In this document: in pieces, positions 9,786 through 20,652 of the stretch | How positions within the stretch are numbered: position 1 is the stretch's first letter | How the letters are laid out: each line of letters begins with the position of its first letter | Virus record (IMG/VR): IMGVR_UViG_3300030102_003221 | Coordinates: 7,713 to 32,106 of that record | Reading direction: 5' to 3' (one strand) | DNA from: a virus | DNA length: 24,394 bases | Translations under genes and position numbers: made by a program | Notes under the pieces: model-generated | What the model saw: only the letters and a program-made list of their open reading frames with translations | What the model was told of the DNA's origin: nothing | Databases searched by the model: none

Positions 9786-10502
9786 ATGGTACTTACAGAT
9801 AGTGTTTATAAAACAGTATTAAATATACTAAATAAAGAAAACAGAGGTTATGTAACGCCGGCTGAGTTTAATACTTTAGCTAAGCAGGCACAGAATGAAA
9901 TATTTGAAGGTTACTTTTCTTCAAGAAACTATGCTATAACAAACTCTTCTGATTATTCTGATATAAGAAAAAATATAGAAGAAAAAATAGCTTTATTTGA
10001 AAATGAAGAAACAATATCTTCAGCAAGCTTTACAAATGCTGCCGGCAATACAACCGCTAGCTACTATGCTTATCCAGATAATTTTTATAGACTTAGTAGT
10101 GTATTTCACATATTAAATTCTGTAAATATACCTATACAAGAAACAACTAATAAATTATTAAATGTTTTAAATAGGTCACCATTAGCAAAACCAACAACTA
10201 CATCACCGGTATATGTGTTACATGAAAATGGTTTAGTTGTAAATCCTACATCAGGTATATCAAGTATAACAATTAATTATATAAGAAAACCAAATGATCC
10301 TAATTGGGTAGGTGGTACTGCAGCAGGTCAAATTGTTGCGAATACATCGGATAATAACTATAAAAACTTTGAGTTACATCCATCTGAGTTTCATGAATTA
10401 GTTATTAAAATACTTGCTTACGCGGGAGTTATTATAAGAGCTGCAGATATAACACAAGTAGCTTCAGCAAAAGAACAACAAATAATTCAATCTGAAAGAT
10501 AA
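9786..10502 (+). CDS. Head-tail connector (ring/adaptor) protein
   Basis: This 238-residue protein begins MVLTDSVYKTVLNILNKENR, with GYVTPAEFNTLAKQAQNEIF at 21-40, and has FELHPSEFHELVIKILAYAG near the C-terminus (about 195-214). This N-terminal helix and the C-terminal HPSE helix are a pattern I associate with neck ring proteins of crAss-like and flavobacterial podoviruses. Such proteins sit below the portal and connect it to the tail. It follows the head genes and overlaps the next gene by one base (TAATG at 10500-10504), so the two are probably made in step. It has no membrane segment. Confidence 0.6.
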   Translation: MVLTDSVYKTVLNILNKENRGYVTPAEFNTLAKQAQNEIFEGYFSSRNYAITNSSDYSDIRKNIEEKIALFENEETISSASFTNAAGNTTASYYAYPDNFYRLSSVFHILNSVNIPIQETTNKLLNVLNRSPLAKPTTTSPVYVLHENGLVVNPTSGISSITINYIRKPNDPNWVGGTAAGQIVANTSDNNYKNFELHPSEFHELVIKILAYAGVIIRAADITQVASAKEQQIIQSER

Positions 10503-11452
10503 TGGCAGAAACTAGAAAAGAATATACTGGTCAACAGTATTATGCACAACATCAAGGTGATAGCGGTAATATACCATCTGATTTTAAAGGATTAGGTTAT
10601 TACAGTAGAACTAGTTTAGAAGATATAATTAATAACTTTATAGTTGCTTATATAGGTGAAGATAAAGCTTTACCTAAAATACCAAGATATGAATTAGACT
10701 TCTGGGCTCAAAGGGCAATGCAAGAATTTAGTTATGATGTATTGCATTCTGAAAAAAGTATGGAACTAGATTTAGGTGATTCATTACAATTTCCATTGCC
10801 ACAAGATTATGTAAACTATATTAAAATATCTTGTGTTGGAATAGATGGTGTTAAAAAAGTATTATTACCGCAAAGAAGATCAGGAGATCCAACAACTCCA
10901 TTACAAGATAATAATAGTAATATTACATTTGACGGACAAGGTAAAATAGTTACAGTAGCTAAATCAACTTTAGCAACACGTTTTCAAGATGCTAGCAACA
11001 CGGCAAATACATTACAATCTGCGCAAGATTATTATTATTCAAATTATAATAATGATAATTTTTCATATTTTAATAAAAGATATGGTGGAGTACCTGAAGA
11101 TATGAATGCTGCTGGAACTTATTTTATAGATCATAAAGCAGGTTTAATATTTTTTGATGGTTCTTTTGCAAATAGAAATGAAGACTTAATTGTATTAGAT
11201 TATATAAGTGATGGTTTAGATGATAATGCAGATTTAAGTAAAGTATTTATGCCTAAACTTGCAGAAGATGCAACTTATGCATACATGTTATATAATTTAT
11301 CCAAAGTTCGTCCCGCTAGTGCACAATTAGTGCCTTTATATAAAAAAGAAGCCACGGCAAAATTAAGAAACGCTAAAATAAGATTAAGTAATTATAAATT
11401 AGAAGAACTTGCTCAAATACTCAGAGGCAAAAGTAAGTGGATTAAACATTAA
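10502..11452 (+). CDS. Second neck ring / tail tubular-type protein
   Basis: This 316-residue protein contains PRYELDFWAQRAMQEFSYDV (about 62-81), a beta part with LQFPLPQDYVNYIKISCVGI, GLIFFDGSFANRNEDLIVLDYISDG and a C-terminal helical part with KKEATAKLRNAKIRLSNYK. The combination of helices around a beta domain with the PLPxDYVxYxK signature resembles tail tubular protein A-type (T7 gp11-like) and crAss-like ring proteins. It would form the ring onto which the tail nozzle docks, which fits the nozzle N-terminal fragment that follows six bases later. Assignment is by pattern and order. Confidence 0.6.
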   Translation: MAETRKEYTGQQYYAQHQGDSGNIPSDFKGLGYYSRTSLEDIINNFIVAYIGEDKALPKIPRYELDFWAQRAMQEFSYDVLHSEKSMELDLGDSLQFPLPQDYVNYIKISCVGIDGVKKVLLPQRRSGDPTTPLQDNNSNITFDGQGKIVTVAKSTLATRFQDASNTANTLQSAQDYYYSNYNNDNFSYFNKRYGGVPEDMNAAGTYFIDHKAGLIFFDGSFANRNEDLIVLDYISDGLDDNADLSKVFMPKLAEDATYAYMLYNLSKVRPASAQLVPLYKKEATAKLRNAKIRLSNYKLEELAQILRGKSKWIKH

Positions 11453-11458
11453 AATTAA

Positions 11459-13465
11459 ATGGCACAAAGCAAAAGAAGTTTTAGTCAAGCTAGACTCGAA
11501 AGAGATTTAGATGATAGAATAGTACCTAAAGGTACATATAGAGATGCTTTAAATATTAGTATAGATACTTCAGAAGATGCAAATGTTGGAGTTATAGAAA
11601 ATTTAAAAGGTAATGAACTTATTGCTAATCAAAGTATAACAGGGCTTTCTTCTTCTTCAAATCCCAATGCAAAAGTTATAGGTAGTTATGCTCATCCTGA
11701 AGGTAATAGAATATACTATTTTGTTACAGGAGATAAATCAGATGGTATTTTTGAACATAATTTAAAAGATAATACTGTTAAAACTATTATTATTGATAGT
11801 TCTGATTTTGTGGCTTCAAGCCCAACAAAAGTTACATTACCTACATTTACTTTTTCAGATGCTGTTGTAGTTGCTACTGTTACTAAAGATGGTACTATTG
11901 GTGTATCAGCAACGCTTGGAACTGTTTTTTCTTTAACACCAGATTTTGGTGCTTCTGTTTCAACTAATACAACAAGGGTAATACAAGCACAAGTTACTGT
12001 TCCTGCAGGATATTCTAATACAGGAAAATTTGTTACCGGTACAGTTACAGCAACACAAGCAGCAATAGCTGCGCCTGTTGTAAACATACTAGATTGTACT
12101 GATATTACAGATAATAGTGTAACTTTAAATGGTGAGTATACAAACGATAGTGCAGGTGTTACAGCAATTGGTTTTTATTATAAAGCAAATACAGGTGGTA
12201 GCTCTACAGTAACTAATTTTACAAATGAGCATGTTATCCGCTCTTTAAGTGGTAGATCTGCAAATTTATCTTCAGGTGCGCCGCTTTGGACTGATCCTTT
12301 TGATGGAGTTGCTGCAAGTGATCTTACAGTAAAAGATAAAGATGGTACAACAATTACATCTTCACAATATGATTATCAAAATTTAGTGGGACCACAACCT
12401 AATACAATATACTTTAAATCAAACTTAGGTACAGTAGATCAAGTCCATGCTAAACTACCTATAACAGTTTCTCAAACTTCAACAGGTACAACAGTAACAA
12501 ATGCATTAACTGCAGCACAAGTACAATCTTCGGGTACAAATTGTCCTGTTACACCTATAACATCACCTTTTTCAAAAGCTCTTACAGGTCTAACTGCAAA
12601 CACAACTTATGCTGTAGTAGCTTATGCTACAAACAGTGTGGGTACAACATTAAGCACTATAAAATATTTTACAACCTCTGCATCTACTGTAAATAGACCA
12701 ATATCAAATAAATTATATATAGTACCTGCTATAAGCTCTTCAATTGTAATGAATAGAAATGTTGGTTATGGTACTTTTGAAAAATCAGATGGTAATTTTT
12801 ATTTTACCCCATTTAGTAGTGCTAGCACAGGGGTTTTTAGTGATATGGCTGCTGGTGAAAATAATATAACTTTTTCAAATACAGGACCACAAACATTAAC
12901 TTTTAATGATGGAGGTGGAGTTGGTGGTAGTAAACATGATTCTCAAAACGTTAGTGGTTCTGGTTTACCCGCAGGAATGTATAATATAACAGCCTCTAGA
13001 TCTGGACATATTTCTAATACTATACAAATAAGAGTAGGGTCACCTCCAAACGCTGTACGTACATCAATTTTTACTCCAAATATAACCAGTACAGGCTCGG
13101 GTACTACACCTGTGGTAGCAGACTCAACTTCTGGAGGTTATCAATATAATACGGGTATAAGCGCCGCCCCAACAGCTGTATTTCAAATAGGACCACATGA
13201 GGCCGGTATTAAAGGGGTAACACTTATACCTTTGTCAACAAATAATAGTACAGCTTTTCCATCATTTAGTGGATTTGATGCTTCAAAATTAACTATATCT
13301 ATTTCAGGCAAAACAGATGGTGTTGATTATAATAGTTTTATATGGGATACTGGGCCACCTATATTTGGTACAGTACCTTGTATTATGATTGAATGTGACC
13401 CAGATACTTTAAACGGAGGTACCGCATCTGTAACACACACTTTAAATATAACTTATAATTATTAA
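11459..13465 (+). CDS. Tail-nozzle N-terminal part fused to Ig/Fn3-like modules
   Basis: This 668-residue protein has at residues 1-118 the N-terminus I associate with the large nozzle/stabilization protein of these phages: RDLDDRIVPKGTYRDALNI, GVIENLKGNELI, and a propeller-like NRIYYFVTGD followed by IFEHNLKDNTVKTIIID. It then leaves that family. Residues about 125-205 are a Thr/Val-rich beta domain. About 206-406 is a fibronectin-III-like module (ITDNSVTLNGEY, AIGFYYK, then LTGLTANTTYAVVAYATN and FTT). A separate stretch of about 90 residues (255-345) lies inside that module. Residues 407-668 are Gly/Ser/Thr-rich beta. The expected continuation of the nozzle begins the gene at 13693. The fused modules may be displayed on the tail as glycan or receptor binders, which is inference. 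Confidence 0.65.
   Translation: MAQSKRSFSQARLERDLDDRIVPKGTYRDALNISIDTSEDANVGVIENLKGNELIANQSITGLSSSSNPNAKVIGSYAHPEGNRIYYFVTGDKSDGIFEHNLKDNTVKTIIIDSSDFVASSPTKVTLPTFTFSDAVVVATVTKDGTIGVSATLGTVFSLTPDFGASVSTNTTRVIQAQVTVPAGYSNTGKFVTGTVTATQAAIAAPVVNILDCTDITDNSVTLNGEYTNDSAGVTAIGFYYKANTGGSSTVTNFTNEHVIRSLSGRSANLSSGAPLWTDPFDGVAASDLTVKDKDGTTITSSQYDYQNLVGPQPNTIYFKSNLGTVDQVHAKLPITVSQTSTGTTVTNALTAAQVQSSGTNCPVTPITSPFSKALTGLTANTTYAVVAYATNSVGTTLSTIKYFTTSASTVNRPISNKLYIVPAISSSIVMNRNVGYGTFEKSDGNFYFTPFSSASTGVFSDMAAGENNITFSNTGPQTLTFNDGGGVGGSKHDSQNVSGSGLPAGMYNITASRSGHISNTIQIRVGSPPNAVRTSIFTPNITSTGSGTTPVVADSTSGGYQYNTGISAAPTAVFQIGPHEAGIKGVTLIPLSTNNSTAFPSFSGFDASKLTISISGKTDGVDYNSFIWDTGPPIFGTVPCIMIECDPDTLNGGTASVTHTLNITYNY
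12221..12493 (+). other. Stretch nested inside an Fn3-like module
   Basis: Residues about 255-345 of the 668-aa protein sit between the GFYYK strand and the closing GLTANTTY part of the Fn3-like module. They include DLTVKDKDGTTIT and TIYFKSNLG, an Ig-like strand pattern of their own. The neighbouring modules in the 1250-aa protein have loops of varied length at the same place. Boundaries are approximate. Confidence 0.4.
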
Positions 13466-13466
13466 T

Positions 13467-13691
13467 ATGGCTATAGCTAAAATTCAACCGCCTTCTTTTG
13501 TAATGGATAAAAAAACTTTTACTCCAGATAAAGATATTAAAATTAATTCTGTTCAAAATTTATATTTATTACCTTTAAATTTTAAAGAAGGTGATATAAT
13601 AGAAGCTGGCACAGAATTAAAATTTAATATTGATGGATTTGATGATTTTCGTGCATTTCCAGAAGCTATAATAGATTATACAGAATTATAA
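13467..13691 (+). CDS. Small ORF of 74 aa between nozzle pieces
   Basis: I do not recognise this protein. It begins MAIAKIQPPSFVMDKKTFTP and has alternating polar and apolar residues (INSVQNLYLLPLNFKEGDII, LKFNIDGFDDF) suggesting one small beta domain, with no signal peptide or membrane segment. It starts one base after the stop of the preceding gene, and the next gene starts one base after its own stop. It could be a minor tail component, a further module separated from its neighbours, or a chaperone for them. Confidence 0.6.
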   Translation: MAIAKIQPPSFVMDKKTFTPDKDIKINSVQNLYLLPLNFKEGDIIEAGTELKFNIDGFDDFRAFPEAIIDYTEL

Positions 13692-13692
13692 T

Positions 13693-16600
13693 ATGGCAAG
13701 TAACATACTTAAGTTTCATCCTAGTAATTTAATTACAGGAATAAATATTGTTGATGACATGCTGTTTTTTACAGATGGTGTTAACGAACCTAAGAAAATA
13801 GACCTAAATATATTTAGAGCTGCAGATCACACTACAGGTAATACTATTGTATATGGTAGAAATTTTCAAGAAAGGGATATAACAGTTATTAGACCTCATC
13901 CACAAACAGCTATAACAACTACTACATCTGCTTCAACTGCTGTAATAAATCCTATAGCATCTGCTCCGCTTATTCAAACCGATAAAGCATATACTCAGAG
14001 CACAGACGTTGTATTATATGGTCAAGCTAGAAGCGGATCAATACCTTTTACAGAAAGAGGTTTTGTATATAAACAAATAGATTCTTTAGATGCGCCAACA
14101 TTACAAGAATTGTTATCAGGAGGCATACCAGTTGTATCTCATACTAATACTGGAAGATTTGATGCAAAAGTGTCTGGGTTATCTTTAACTAAAAGATACT
14201 ATTATATTGCATATGCAAAAAATGCTGTTACTCCTGGAAAAATTTATGCAAAAGATGTAGATGGTACAGATGATATAGAAACGTTTGTAATTAACGATAC
14301 TTCAAATGCAGCATTTACACCTAATTTAGCAGTTCGAACAATGTCTATTAGCCCTGGAGATACTTTTCCAGGTAAAGGAGCAGATGGTACTGTTATACTA
14401 CATGGTACTGTTACTTCTAATACTAATGCTGCGACTATAACTAATAGAGGTTTTTATGTATTTAGAACGGTTACATCAGATAATAGAACATTTACTGCTA
14501 GTGATATTTTAAGTGATGTTAGTGATGATGTGTTAACTTTTGATGGTATTCAAGTACATACTAAATTCCCAAGAGGGACTGATGACCCTAGTGGAAGAAA
14601 TTTTGTTACAACTATAGATGATTTTAGTTTTGGTGAAAAATTGTTTGTACAAGCTTTTGCTTCTACAGGAATAGATCCAGTTCAAAGGGTTGGTGAAATT
14701 AAATCATTTCCTATATCCGCATCAAACGACCCAAATAACAAAGCAGTACAGCATAAACCAAACCCTTCAATGTCAGAGCCAGATCAGAATAATACTTCTG
14801 TAACTATGAAAGCTCGAATTGATCATAATAATTGGAATATAACTGCTTCAGGTAGATTAGAAAGAGGTTTTTATTTTTCTAAAAAATCATTTGATGTTAA
14901 AAAAATAACAACACTTACATTTGCATCAGGTGTAGGCACAGAGGTTGATCAAGGCTATAATGGTAGAATAGAGTGGAAACAAGCAACAAATGACCCAGAA
15001 ATATTTAGAGTATCTCAATTTTGGGACGGTGGTTATCCGCAATCTGAAGAAGCCTATGCTGTAGAAACTTCTGCAATATCTGCATTTAGTATTACAAGAG
15101 ATGAAAGTATATTTATATGTGCTTTTGGTAGAAGCAATTTTGGTGAAGGATATGAAAGACATAGAGGTAAATCTGCTGTAAAAGAATATAAAGCTGGAAC
15201 AGGAACTGCAAATGTGCCAATTACAATAACAGCTGATGCTATTAGATTTACTGCTGGGAAAATAGAGGTAGATGTTACTATTGCTCACAATACTCCTATT
15301 GCTACTGAAATGGGATTATATTTTACATCACAAGAACCTGGTGTTGATTTAGGTAATGGCACTAATTTACAAAAGCAAGGTATAATATTAGATAGAGCAC
15401 AAAGACAAAATGACAATTTTGCTAGAATGATACCTGGCCCAGCAACTAGTATTAAAGATATAAACGGTCAAGTTGTATTAAATACATCAACACAAAAAAT
15501 ACAAGAAGGTAATTTTACTTTTCAATATGGATTTGATATTGATAGATTTCCAATAACAAACGGAACAGGTAATGTTTCTAGTAAACTACCTATAGATAGA
15601 AAAGATTATTATGCTATGCCTTTTGTAAAAGTTAATAATAAAGAAATATACGGGTCAGTAATTGGTCCACCTAAATTAGGTAATATAAATGAGCCACCAG
15701 ATATTGAAACCTTAAATTATACAGGTAATCAAATAAGCGGTGGACAACCTAAAGTTACTTTTAATGGTCAAGTATTCGAACAACTATCTAATACACCTAC
15801 ATTAACAGAAGCTGGGTTTATTTATGGAACAAATGCAAATGAAGTTGCCGCGGGAACTGGAAGTACCATTGTTGCGGTAAGTAATACCGTTACAAGTAAT
15901 ACACCAAGTAGTATATCTTTACTAAATTCATTTTTAGGACAACAAGGATCAGCTGGACAAACTCCTAAGTTTTCAGTTCAAGCTACTCTTACGGGTCAGC
16001 ACGGACAAGTTATTTATTATATAGCTTATGTTAAAATATCAGGAGATGGCGGAAATACTTTGCATTTAGCAGAAGATGATAATCAAACAGGTGATTATGG
16101 TAAAGGGGTTGTTAGAGTTCAACTACAAGGTACTGCAGCTGTAACTTCTGGTGTTGGCACTAGACTACCTGTGCCAGAATTATTAGTTACAAAAGATGTA
16201 GGAAGAAAAGCCGGTACATTTAGAGCAAATCAAGGTGATAATGGAGGTTCTAATAAAAGTTTAACTGAAATGACACCTAAGTTTTACTATATGAAAGAAA
16301 CTTCTATACCTGCAGCTTCATTATATAGAGGAAGTAGTACGGTTACAGAAGCAACAACACAAGCATATATTAAAATTAATGCTGCTAGTTCGCCTAACGC
16401 AACATCAGGAGTTGTTACTGTAACTGCTGACACTGATGATTTATCAAACTTAAAAAATTCAATAGCAACAACTATTTCAGGATTAGACGCAAACACTAGA
16501 TATGTTTATTTTGTTACAGCGAATAATGGTGTAGCAATTACATCAGCTCCTTTTGCGCAAGGCGAAGGGCCTTCAAAAAGATGTTTTTCTTTTAAAACAC

Positions 16601-17445
16601 AACCTGAACCACCCGCATATCCTAATGGACAAAGAGCATTTTCTAAAATTATAGAAATAAAAAATGTAACAACAAATTCTGCAGAAGTACATATTAAATG
16701 GACAGGTGGTGGTGGTGATATTTCAACTATTACAAAACACGGTGTTTATTATGCTAAAACATCTGCAATGACTGCTCCATTTACTATTGTGAGTATTTGG
16801 AATGCAAGTCCTGCTAAAACTTTTGTTTCAACTAATGAACCATTAGAAGATACTGCAGAATTAACAGGATTAGAACCTGGAACGGAATATCATGTATGCT
16901 GTACTATGCTAAACGATAATACACTTGGCGATATTGCTGGAATGACCGGTTCAGGAGGTGAAGGTATTAGTAGTGTTAGAAAATTTACAACACAGGGAGG
17001 AACAGTTGCTAACCCTATACCTGTGCCGGTACAAAGTATAAAGGTTAATCCCACAAGACTTATAATAGCTGAAAATGGCAAAAAGAAAGTTTTTGGAAGA
17101 AGATTAGCAAACGGTTCACCTTCATCAATGCGATATGCAAATCCTTCATTTGCTATTTCAATATCACCAAAAGATGCAGAACTTAAAGAATCTGATATAA
17201 CTTTTCCAGCATATAGTTTTATAAATCCAAAAGTTGTTGTTAATAAATCAAAATTAATTAGACAAGGAAATGGTCAATATAGAGTTGAACTTGAAATAAA
17301 CCCAAATCAAGGGATTTTTGCAAAACCAAGTTTAAGTGGGGTTGTAACAGTTAAACATCCAAACCCGCTTGTAAAAGCGGCTACGGTTGATTTATCACAA
17401 GCTGGTCCTGCTAAAGGTAAACCGATTTTTACAAAATGGCCTTAA
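13693..17445 (+). CDS. Tail-nozzle internal part with seven Fn3-like modules
   Basis: This 1250-residue protein opens in mid-domain. Residues 3-70 (ILKFHPSNLITGINIVDDML, FFTDGVNEPKKIDL, GRNFQERDITVIRPHP) match what normally follows the propeller start found in the gene at 11459. From about residue 84 it has at least seven Ig/Fn3-like modules, each marked by a Gly-aromatic strand: RGFVYK (122), RGFYVF (252), RGFYFS (391), MGLYFT (540), AGFIYG (707), KFYYMK (863) and HGVYYA (1016). Several end with an AYA-type or FTT strand. The last part, about 1110-1250, has VQSIKVNPTRLIIAENGKKK, like a bacterial Ig-like domain. Such modules in Bacteroidetes surface proteins bind glycans or act as spacers. 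Here they are probably displayed on the tail for adsorption. No catalytic domain is seen. Confidence 0.65.
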   Translation: MASNILKFHPSNLITGINIVDDMLFFTDGVNEPKKIDLNIFRAADHTTGNTIVYGRNFQERDITVIRPHPQTAITTTTSASTAVINPIASAPLIQTDKAYTQSTDVVLYGQARSGSIPFTERGFVYKQIDSLDAPTLQELLSGGIPVVSHTNTGRFDAKVSGLSLTKRYYYIAYAKNAVTPGKIYAKDVDGTDDIETFVINDTSNAAFTPNLAVRTMSISPGDTFPGKGADGTVILHGTVTSNTNAATITNRGFYVFRTVTSDNRTFTASDILSDVSDDVLTFDGIQVHTKFPRGTDDPSGRNFVTTIDDFSFGEKLFVQAFASTGIDPVQRVGEIKSFPISASNDPNNKAVQHKPNPSMSEPDQNNTSVTMKARIDHNNWNITASGRLERGFYFSKKSFDVKKITTLTFASGVGTEVDQGYNGRIEWKQATNDPEIFRVSQFWDGGYPQSEEAYAVETSAISAFSITRDESIFICAFGRSNFGEGYERHRGKSAVKEYKAGTGTANVPITITADAIRFTAGKIEVDVTIAHNTPIATEMGLYFTSQEPGVDLGNGTNLQKQGIILDRAQRQNDNFARMIPGPATSIKDINGQVVLNTSTQKIQEGNFTFQYGFDIDRFPITNGTGNVSSKLPIDRKDYYAMPFVKVNNKEIYGSVIGPPKLGNINEPPDIETLNYTGNQISGGQPKVTFNGQVFEQLSNTPTLTEAGFIYGTNANEVAAGTGSTIVAVSNTVTSNTPSSISLLNSFLGQQGSAGQTPKFSVQATLTGQHGQVIYYIAYVKISGDGGNTLHLAEDDNQTGDYGKGVVRVQLQGTAAVTSGVGTRLPVPELLVTKDVGRKAGTFRANQGDNGGSNKSLTEMTPKFYYMKETSIPAASLYRGSSTVTEATTQAYIKINAASSPNATSGVVTVTADTDDLSNLKNSIATTISGLDANTRYVYFVTANNGVAITSAPFAQGEGPSKRCFSFKTQPEPPAYPNGQRAFSKIIEIKNVTTNSAEVHIKWTGGGGDISTITKHGVYYAKTSAMTAPFTIVSIWNASPAKTFVSTNEPLEDTAELTGLEPGTEYHVCCTMLNDNTLGDIAGMTGSGGEGISSVRKFTTQGGTVANPIPVPVQSIKVNPTRLIIAENGKKKVFGRRLANGSPSSMRYANPSFAISISPKDAELKESDITFPAYSFINPKVVVNKSKLIRQGNGQYRVELEINPNQGIFAKPSLSGVVTVKHPNPLVKAATVDLSQAGPAKGKPIFTKWP
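13942..16995 (+). repeat. Array of about seven divergent Fn3/Ig-like modules
   Basis: The modules recur every 130-170 residues within the 1250-aa protein and are recognised at protein level by a Gly-Phe/Leu/Val-aromatic strand. Module starts are approximately residues 95, 201, 346, 506, 668, 820 and 970. I see no DNA-level tandem identity, so the array is old or was built from unrelated copies rather than by recent duplication. Confidence 0.6.
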
Positions 17446-17460
17446 AATATATAATATAGT

Positions 17461-20400
17461 ATGTCAGAAAAATTACCATTTGAAAAAATTTTTCCGTATT
17501 TTAGTTACAGATGGCGTTATAACGATGGACAATTTTCTCCTTATGCACCATTTAGTAAAGTTGCTTTTATTCCAAAAGATCCAGATGTTGAAGATTTTTT
17601 TAGAAAAGGGCATAATACTTCTGTAGCAAATAAATTAGAACAAATAACTTTAAAAGATATAGATAGAGGAGGGCCTGATGTAGAGGCTGTAGATATATTA
17701 TATACAGAATCTATTTCAAGTACTATCTATGTTTTAAAAACTATTGAAATACCAGAAGCTGAAAGAGGTAATGGTAGTCCCTTAACTGTTCAATTAAAAG
17801 AAAGAAGTTTTGGAGCAGCATTACCAGCTAGCCAATTAACAAGACAATTTGATAGTGTACCAAAAAGTGCAAAAGCACAAGAAATTACAGCTAATAGAGT
17901 TATATATGGTAATTATATTACTAAATATAATCAAAATGATAATTTAAAAATTGAACTTGGTACAGCTGTTTTCCCAGATCCTTTAAACGGTCCATCTTTA
18001 AAAGGTAATAGAACTTATGAAGTAGGTGTTGCTTATATGGATAGATTTGGTAGAATAGGTGGTATGTTAACTCAAAAAGCACCTGATACAGATGCTGAAG
18101 GCTCAAGTATAAAAACACCCTTTACACAAAGATTTAGAACTGGATTAACAGCAAAAATAACTAGCGATCCACCTGAGTGGGCTAAGTTTTATAGATATTA
18201 TGTAAAAGATGTATCAGGTGAGCATTTTAATTTATCTTCATTTAATATATATAATGATGGTACAGCAGATGACAATGATTCAGATAATGTTTATTTACAA
18301 TTTAATTCTACAGATAGAAATAAAATAACTGAAGATACAGTATTAATACCTAGAAGACATACATTTAATAGAAAAATAAATGGCGCTGCTATAGAAACTA
18401 TATTTGCAGGTGAATCAAGACATCCGGTGCTAGGTATTGAAAATGATGCTCCTGATGTTGTAAAAACTCAAATAACAGAAAGAGTGGTAATTCCTGTTGT
18501 AACGTTTGTAGAAAGAAATGGTAGAATAAATAATCCAACTACCACAACCGGGCAAGGGGGAGGACAGGCTGCTTATATAACTCAACCAGGTGATACAGCT
18601 GTTGCTATTGGAGATGAATCTAACTTTGCTGTTGTAGCAAGTAAATTAAATGAATATATCGCCTCTCAAGACCCTAGCCAAAGTACAAGATTTGAACTTG
18701 GTACAGGAACATCAGCTTCAGGGCTTGCTGATCAAGTTGTCGATGTTTCTAGTTATGGAGAAAGATTAGCATTAAGGTTTAAACCTGCTAATAAATCAGA
18801 TGATAATCAATATAAAACTGATTTAAATTTAATTGATGAAGTAAGATTTTTAGCTGCCGATTCAAGCCAAAAAAAAAGACATGTTTTTAAGTTTACTCTT
18901 GCGGATAGACTTGATGACGATGGGCAACCTATAGCTGGAACAGGATTAAGTAAAGGTGGTCATACCTTACATGGAGGCGGTGCCTTCAATGATCCTACTA
19001 TGTCTTTAAAGATATATAAATTAGGTTTATCAGAAGATGGTAAAAATAAATTAAAAGGATCGTTTTTTGTAAAAGTACCTAGACTGTTTTCAACTACAGC
19101 AACAATTGTTACTTCTGGCACAGGGTTAGTTGCAGGTCAAACACCGCATGATAACGATGGAAATGTTGCTGGTAATGAAATTCTCGAAGCTAACTTTGAA
19201 ACAGAACCGGGGCCAGATTCTAATTTAGATTTATATTTTGAAGGTAATAGAACTTATGAAGTTAGAGATGATGATGGTAATATTACAGATCATGGGCAAA
19301 CAAATACAGTAGAATTTGCAAATTGTATTGCTACAGCAGAAGATACTTCAAAAGAAGTTTACTTAGAATCAAGAAAGCTTTTTGATAAGTTTAATACTGT
19401 TGAACTAGTAAAAGGTATTAGAGTAAATACACCTGATCCAAGATATGCAGAAGAAAATAGAAAAACAGGATTAATATTTTCTGGTTTATATAATTCTAAA
19501 ACTGGTACAAATAATTTAAATCAATTTGATTTATCTACAGGTATTACTAAAGAACTTGAACCAAACTATGGTGGTATACAAAAGTTATATACACTTGATA
19601 CAAACTTGTTAGCGCTTGCTGAAGATAAGGTATTTAGAGTATTAGCTGATAAAGATGCATTATTTAACGCTGACGACGGTGTAAATGTTACTGCAACTAA
19701 TTTAGTATTAGGTCAAGCAATGGCTTATCAAGGTAATTATGGTATAAGTACACACCCTGAATCATTTGTATATTTTAAAAATAATATTTATTTTTCAGAT
19801 GCTAAAAGAGGTAGTATTATACAATTAACACCTGCCAATGGACAAATGTTTCCTATTAGCTCAAAAGGTATGTCAAACTTTTTTAGAGATAGATTAGGAG
19901 CACTGCAAACTACAACAGCTACAGATAATGATGGAAATGTATTTAATACAGCTAAAATTTTAGGGCTTTACGACGGGCACAAAAAAAATTATATAGTATC
20001 AATACAAGGGTATAACCAATCGGATGCGTCTATTGGCTCCGAAAGTATTCCAAATGAGACATCTAACATCACTTTATCATATAGTTTAAACTCACAAGGC
20101 TGGACAAGTCGATATTCATTTATTCCAGAAACAGGAATTAGTATGAATAATAAGTTTTTTACATTTAAAAATGGTAAAGCATATTTGCATCATTCTAATA
20201 CTGCAAATAGAAATAACTTTTATGGAGTAGCTGGTAATTCAGAAGTACAAATAATATTTAACGATAATCCTTCTTTTGTTTCAGATTGGCTTAGTTTAAA
20301 TTATGAGGGTACAGCTGGATGGTTAGCATCGGAAATAATAGGTGAACAAGATTCAACTTATAGTATAACCAATGTTAGATTATTAGATTCTGAAGATTCT

Positions 20401-20652
20401 AATTTTGATGGTTGGTTTTTAAAAGAAGGTAAATATTATGGATCTATAGTTGGTACACAACCTGTATACATTATACAACCAGGTAGCAGTATAGGTTCAG
20501 ATGGATTTTATCCATTAATTCAAGACGGATCAAATACACAAGATATATCCGGTACAAAAGGCTTTTTCTTAAAAGCAAGATTTAAAAATACATCAACTTC
20601 TGTATGTGAACTTGCAGCAGTTGGAAGTGAATATTATATTAGTCAAACTTAA
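17461..20652 (+). CDS. Tail-nozzle (stabilization) protein, main C-terminal part
   Basis: This 1063-residue protein begins MSEKLPFEKIFPYFSYRWRY, then NDGQFSPYAPFSKVAFIPKD. This FSYRWRYxDGxxSPxxPFS stretch is normally internal to the nozzle/stabilization protein of these phages, and here it is at the very start. Later parts carry beta-propeller-like repeats (GLIFSGLYNSKTG, LALAEDKVFRVLADKDA, FVYFKNNIYFSDAKRGSIIQ) and QGWTSRYSFIPETGISMNNK, the usual C-terminal propeller of T7 gp12-type nozzles. It would close the distal tail tube. With the N-terminal parts of the genes at 11459 and 13693 it makes up one conventional nozzle. Its own start is a clean ATG 15 bases after the previous stop, with no Shine-Dalgarno. 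Confidence 0.7.
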   Translation: MSEKLPFEKIFPYFSYRWRYNDGQFSPYAPFSKVAFIPKDPDVEDFFRKGHNTSVANKLEQITLKDIDRGGPDVEAVDILYTESISSTIYVLKTIEIPEAERGNGSPLTVQLKERSFGAALPASQLTRQFDSVPKSAKAQEITANRVIYGNYITKYNQNDNLKIELGTAVFPDPLNGPSLKGNRTYEVGVAYMDRFGRIGGMLTQKAPDTDAEGSSIKTPFTQRFRTGLTAKITSDPPEWAKFYRYYVKDVSGEHFNLSSFNIYNDGTADDNDSDNVYLQFNSTDRNKITEDTVLIPRRHTFNRKINGAAIETIFAGESRHPVLGIENDAPDVVKTQITERVVIPVVTFVERNGRINNPTTTTGQGGGQAAYITQPGDTAVAIGDESNFAVVASKLNEYIASQDPSQSTRFELGTGTSASGLADQVVDVSSYGERLALRFKPANKSDDNQYKTDLNLIDEVRFLAADSSQKKRHVFKFTLADRLDDDGQPIAGTGLSKGGHTLHGGGAFNDPTMSLKIYKLGLSEDGKNKLKGSFFVKVPRLFSTTATIVTSGTGLVAGQTPHDNDGNVAGNEILEANFETEPGPDSNLDLYFEGNRTYEVRDDDGNITDHGQTNTVEFANCIATAEDTSKEVYLESRKLFDKFNTVELVKGIRVNTPDPRYAEENRKTGLIFSGLYNSKTGTNNLNQFDLSTGITKELEPNYGGIQKLYTLDTNLLALAEDKVFRVLADKDALFNADDGVNVTATNLVLGQAMAYQGNYGISTHPESFVYFKNNIYFSDAKRGSIIQLTPANGQMFPISSKGMSNFFRDRLGALQTTTATDNDGNVFNTAKILGLYDGHKKNYIVSIQGYNQSDASIGSESIPNETSNITLSYSLNSQGWTSRYSFIPETGISMNNKFFTFKNGKAYLHHSNTANRNNFYGVAGNSEVQIIFNDNPSFVSDWLSLNYEGTAGWLASEIIGEQDSTYSITNVRLLDSEDSNFDGWFLKEGKYYGSIVGTQPVYIIQPGSSIGSDGFYPLIQDGSNTQDISGTKGFFLKARFKNTSTSVCELAAVGSEYYISQT

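Follow-up and report, generated by a model that had tools for sequence, protein, structure and literature searches.

A crAss-type muzzle protein divided over three open reading frames in a clade of uncultured viruses

Results

The muzzle locus

The DNA analysed, hereafter the window, is a stretch of 24,394 nucleotides that covers positions 7713-32106 of a virus record of 53,026 bases (IMGVR_UViG_3300030102_003221). It contains a head-tail module in which genes for a terminase, a portal, a major-capsid-type protein and two probable ring proteins are followed by three long ORFs, designated chains A, B and C. Upstream of the terminase gene, at 189-539, lies a Peptidase M15_3 family protein (E 9.3e-14), probably an endolysin-type peptidase. 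The features of the locus are the following.

9786-10502 and 10502-11452, + strand: two virion structural genes preceding chain A, probable ring/adaptor proteins (phrog_14543, phrog_13977; SU10_adaptor E 1.1e-5, just under cut-off)
11459-13465, + strand: chain A of the split muzzle, 668 aa (ORF with ATG and TAA; phrog_14478 positions 2-104, E 2.4e-18; blastp and profile matches)
11459-11806, + strand: chain A residues 1-116, predicted N-terminal ring-joining segment and propeller blade 1 (aligns with residues 1-108 of single-chain muzzles; model strands 64-106; dN/dS 0.05-0.23)
11807-13462, + strand: chain A array, about 550 aa, probably Fn3/Ig-like, with a free C-terminus (weak similarity to the B arrays; diverges faster than the blade part)
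13467-13691, + strand: 74-aa ORF separating chains A and B (relatives in part of the three-chain clade)
13693-17445, + strand: chain B of the split muzzle, 1250 aa (ORF with ATG and TAA; blastp and profile matches)
13699-13944, + strand: chain B residues 3-84, predicted propeller blade 2 (aligns with residues 109-186 of single chains; model strands 122-182; dN/dS 0.05-0.15 for residues 1-73)
13945-17442, + strand: chain B array, about 1170 aa, Ig/Fn3-like domains with a free C-terminus (Pfam fn3 and Pur_ac_phosph_N; model matches titin and fibronectin FnIII tandems)
17446-17460, + strand: spacer of 15 nt from chain B to chain C, containing a second TAA in frame (17452-17454)
17461-20652, + strand: chain C, 1063 aa, predicted IG1, IG2, crass-like variable region, remaining blades and C-terminal part (phrog_14478 E 4.1e-80; ATG and TAA; blastp and profile matches)
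18496-19140, + strand: chain C residues 346-560, fast-diverging, probably part of the crass domain (dN/dS 0.31-0.77, against 0.11-0.29 around it)

Ring genes directly upstream of the muzzle are the podovirus tail gene order, and this order is found in the window; phi38:1, Gundel_1 and elemo have two virion structural genes at the same place. A preliminary description had spoken of three reading frames. There are indeed three ORFs, but only two frames, as chains B and C share one and chain A lies in another. The 74-aa ORF gave no family match in PHROGs, Pfam or NCBIfam; similar ORFs are present in L002, L003, L094, L096, L173 and L177, with a dN/dS of 0.36-0.61 calculated on few sites.

Chains A, B and C are consecutive parts of one protein

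Each chain was compared by blastp with related proteins made as a single chain. Residues 1-116 of chain A aligned with residues 1-108 of the single chains (E down to 8e-20), residues 3/5-84 of chain B with residues 109-186 approximately (E 8e-7 to 3e-4 in six relatives), and chain C, starting from its residue 7-11, with residues 191-208 onward (E down to 7e-46). The match of chain B to elemo had an E of 0.05, while its location was constant across all relatives. In the MAFFT alignment, the three chains tiled the single chains end to end without overlap. The whole record was then searched with a profile built from seven relatives, unsplit or split elsewhere, none of which has three chains. Profile positions 1-108 fell on chain A (E 3.4e-27), 104-187 on chain B (E 2.1e-11) and 198-1214 on chain C (E 1.6e-68). 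This search detected no second muzzle copy in the record: the matches lay on the three ORFs alone, and in order. The family phrog_14478 likewise covers chain A with its positions 2-104, and much of what remains of it matches chain C; it is filed under head and packaging, yet holds the tail-tip muzzle/nozzle protein. By tblastn, chains A and C led to the same cultured phages and, in each, to one and the same structural protein; the only match to chain B was in the Manatee Spring record MW202828, immediately after that to chain A. By muzzle, the nearest named phages belong to Pervagoviridae, Pachyviridae and Elemovirus.

These comparisons confirm, at the level of sequence, that the three ORFs read as consecutive parts of one protein. 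The preliminary description had proposed exactly this for the N-terminal parts of the 668-, 1250- and 1063-aa proteins, and blastp, MAFFT and profile tiling bear it out. It had also advised searching the fragments separately and aligning them to a full-length homolog, which gave an ordered tiling on the single-chain relatives, and it would have been abandoned if no single-chain relative spanned all three. That objection falls, since such relatives exist, among them Cellulophaga phi38:1 gp097.

The split protein belongs, by homology to its relatives, to the crAss-type muzzles

An AlphaFold2 model was made of residues 1-1190 of the phi38:1 single-chain muzzle (mean pLDDT 77.6, pTM 0.71, residues 1-49 and those after ∼1131 being mostly unreliable). 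Compared to known structures, it matched PhicrAss001 gp44 (7qol) with a Z of 22.9 over 553 residues, and P22 gp10 with a Z of 17.4. As unrelated WD40 propellers reach a Z of up to 15.8, the crAss match stands clear, whereas the P22 match is merely slightly higher. A ring-joining segment and a propeller with IG1 after blade 2 were both recognised on the alignment of the phi38:1 model with 7qol, and the window matches phi38:1 by sequence. Two relatives scored above the Pfam cut-offs (L005, crAss_MUZ, E 2.8e-15; L155, crAss_MUZ_C, E 4.6e-9). The window chains are below them (chain C, crAss_MUZ_C, E 0.0076), so that their membership rests on homology to the relatives. Searches of PDB sequences with chain C, one relative and two profiles found no muzzle; the link was obtained through Pfam models and structure comparison. 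We conclude that the split protein is, as judged from the phi38:1 model, a crAss-type muzzle, within the T7 gp12/P22 gp10 nozzle class. The initial reading of a nozzle protein was thus right as to the class, and is narrowed from a generic nozzle to the crAss type. A crAss-type muzzle is a single polypeptide, and the window has three ORFs in its place; we therefore class it as a split variant rather than an ordinary member.

On the model, the cuts fall at blade and domain boundaries

In the phi38:1 model, the strands of blade 1 are at 64-72, 77-84, 88-94 and 99-106, and those of blade 2 at 122-128, 133-139, 146-149 and 178-182, with IG1 starting from 197; blades were assigned from strand order and the published gp44 layout, not from 3D inspection of the coordinates. 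In the numbering of this model, break 1 is at ∼108/109 and break 2 at 186-196. By these strand positions, the linker that joins blades 1 and 2 contains break 1, and break 2 separates blade 2 from IG1. On the model, then, the cut points coincide with blade and domain boundaries, and chain B is predicted to supply one whole blade. The preliminary description had chain B begin in mid-propeller; on the model, its start does not lie inside a blade but coincides with that of blade 2. When chain B was modelled alone, blade 2 came out at low confidence, as might be seen with a part that depends on partners, though this is no proof. At the same joints, which by construction are gaps between conserved blocks, single-chain relatives have inserts of up to 435 aa (joint 1) and 668 aa (joint 2).

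Arrays at the ends of chains A and B

Ig/Fn3-like arrays had been described after the first two muzzle parts. For chain B this is well supported: Pfam detected fn3 (E 1.8e-7) as well as Pur_ac_phosph_N, and the model, although of low confidence overall (pLDDT 61, pTM 0.28), matched FnIII tandems of titin and fibronectin. The case of chain A is weaker. Its array gave no Pfam match, and its weak similarity to the B arrays, together with a reading of motifs, suggests that it is of the same kind. No similarity was detected between the arrays of the split chains and the inserts of long intact single chains, the sole hit being L117, which is L118/L119 in broken form. The argument for descent from such an insertion is therefore one of position only, and insertion followed by a new start is indistinguishable, as an origin, from the joining of an array gene.

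The three-chain form is conserved in one clade

All loci, from 172 records in total, were scanned with six segment profiles (S1 to S6). The three-chain layout, S1|S2|S3-S6, was found in 26 records, all segments were in one chain in 41, and a cut before S6 was present in 51, counts that mirror the search queries and are not frequencies. Wherever both breaks can be seen in a three-chain record, both are present (23/23). A tree was built from 135 records; in it, the three-chain members whose core could be used, 19 in number, formed one clade (support 1.0). Clustering at 90% identity sorts these into 12 groups, and their cores are at least 60% identical. On the same side of the midpoint root lies a group of single chains of great length (up to 3230 aa), and the branching next to the clade is weak (support 0.25). 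The three-chain arrangement is thus kept across a group of uncultured viruses. No three-chain phage was found in a phage collection, nor virion proteomics of any such phage. Being clean, present in 26 records and monophyletic, the breaks are neither frameshifts nor assembly errors, in agreement with the clean stops and ATGs first noted in the window. In three loci (L101:7971-9965, L103:7992-9965 and L106:5818-7791), chain A is cut again, into a 208-aa blade-1 chain and an Fn3-like ORF, followed by chain B.

Selection was estimated by comparing the window with L003, L002 or L004. Values of dN/dS were 0.05-0.23 for the blade parts of A and B, 0.11-0.29 for the chain C core, and 0.3-0.97 for most array stretches. 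Some array stretches were nearly as conserved as the blades against L003 (0.06-0.17), and dS was high against L004, so that the contrast lends support but does not decide the matter. It nonetheless shows that the short blade segments are being preserved. Residues 346-560 of chain C, with 46% identity to L003 against 91-96% around them, are a candidate host-contact region within the crass domain.

A two-chain form cut at another joint

The muzzle of Cellulophaga phi19:3 (L181:8001-13571) consists of two chains, gp120 (S1-S5) and gp121 (S6). In phi19:3, as in the 51 records of this layout, the cut precedes the last blades and the first chain ends in a variable extension. Many records have further DNA in the cut, up to 3.6 kb (L031, L037), as in a module-exchange site, and the end of the first chain contains TSP_3 repeats in L016, He_PIG in L024 and Big_9 in L006. 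In L005 (4265-9016), the first muzzle chain has in its tail a DSSGSM stretch that resembles a von Willebrand A metal site, with no Pfam confirmation. Both gp120 and gp121 are annotated as structural, by similarity to phi8:3 gp114 and gp115, and near-identical gp121 genes are present in phi18:3, phi13:2 and phi46:3. If the phi8:3-derived annotations stem from virion proteomics, then virions contain both parts of a cut muzzle, which would be an independent hint that such chains co-assemble. One-chain and two-chain forms are intermixed in the tree, which suggests, with no formal count, repeated change at joint 3.

Muzzle ORFs broken across frames were also encountered. L117 (9199-13997) has the near-identical and intact L118 and L119 as counterparts, L068 (8983-13076) has an intact sister, L049, and a third case is L009 (7422-11335). 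All three are probable frameshifts, and contrast with the clean three-chain breaks.

Discussion

We propose that the window encodes one muzzle in three polypeptides, a reading in which we have high confidence. Blade 1 and the ring-joining N-terminus would come from chain A and blade 2 from chain B; chain C would account for IG1, IG2, the crass region and all other blades. The three would co-assemble, probably in six copies each, into the hexameric tail-tip gate. The cuts would lie in linkers where other nozzles bear inserted domains, and each would free the C-terminus of an array, so that a long linear arm hangs from the joint and its ends need not rejoin one loop. In the single-chain relatives, both ends of an insert must return to the propeller. 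Ig/Fn3 arrays are linear, with ends far apart, so a long arm would be easiest to accommodate at the end of a chain, with a new chain beginning at the next blade. A free end would also explain why an array lies upstream of each cut, and why the downstream chain opens directly with the next domain. The arms probably touch the host surface.

Three other explanations were weighed. Artefacts of sequencing, assembly or mutation in one genome may well exist in the muzzle family, as L117 (compared to L118/L119), L068 (compared to L049) and the Panino halves, which overlap in different frames, look like such cases. We give this explanation practically no credence for the window: clean breaks, independent start codons and arrays hundreds of residues long are common to 26 records whose core identity goes down to 60%, and each fragment is under purifying selection. 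The conserved three-chain clade refutes it. It is also very unlikely that the mRNA or the protein is rejoined into one chain, with the arrays kept or not, by an intron, an intein, readthrough or frameshifting. The shared frame of B and C would suit this, and group I introns and inteins do interrupt genes in some crAss-like phages (PMC7886860), but the intervening sequence is itself an open reading frame for Ig/Fn3-like arrays, two in-frame TAA stand between B and C, and chain A is in the other frame with the 74-aa ORF between A and B. An Rfam search for intron RNA gave no match at E up to 0.5 and the Pfam search found no intein; with the stops and the coding arrays, this led us to reject the intron, intein and readthrough readings.

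The last explanation is that A and B are separate adhesins, whose blades are virion anchors or relics, and that C closes a smaller propeller alone. The array does make up most of A and of B, and the physical assembly of the three chains is something we infer. Still, chain C begins at IG1 and is devoid of blades 1-2, for which the profile search revealed no other source in the record; the blade parts of A and B rank with the best-conserved stretches, and the two chains are kept together in 23/23 records. We consider this explanation improbable, if somewhat less so than the two preceding ones, and retain a muzzle co-assembled from three chains.

Beta-propellers are usually closed within one chain. 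Among known systems, PhicrAss001 gp44 (7QOK/7QOL; Pfam crAss_MUZ) resembles the window protein by its ring-joining segment, its seven-bladed propeller and its IG1, located between blades 2 and 3 (PMC10172136). It is one chain, and its reported length variation concerns the crass and IG2 regions (PMC10172136), neither at the blade 1/2 joint nor before IG1. In the SU10 nozzle, gp17, blade 1 bears a fibre dock and four Ig-like domains separate blade 2 from blade 3; blades 1-3 are away from the channel (PMC9509320). These extra domains are in the same regions as the cuts in the window, a likeness of described layout, but gp17 is a single chain, and its inserted domains are tied to the propeller at both ends. 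The sequence relatives phi38:1 gp097 (1324 aa) and Elemovirus gp22 (1470 aa) span all three window chains, unsplit and without long arrays at joints 1 and 2. Finally, phi19:3 gp120 and gp121 (Pachyviridae) also form a multi-chain muzzle, with a variable extension ending the first chain, but cut at another joint, before the last blades. We found no description of split nozzle or muzzle genes in the literature searched, which was limited to one library. The parts are of known kinds, and the multi-chain propeller is new.

A wider proposal, which we favour only slightly over its negation, is that nozzle propellers in this lineage of phages are breakable at defined joints, with fission at two places at least, joints 1 and 2 in one clade and joint 3 elsewhere. 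The gate would then comprise two to four different chains, and could bear a dozen or more exchangeable, free-ended adhesin arms. On the practical side, chain B has no match in PHROGs, the Pfam muzzle models or NCBIfam, which means that automatic annotation misses muzzle genes in such phages. If our reading is true, a conserved, natural three-chain propeller stands at the genome gate, and the closure of a propeller may be shared between chains. It would also yield a concrete rule by which phages add further host-contact modules to the tail tip.
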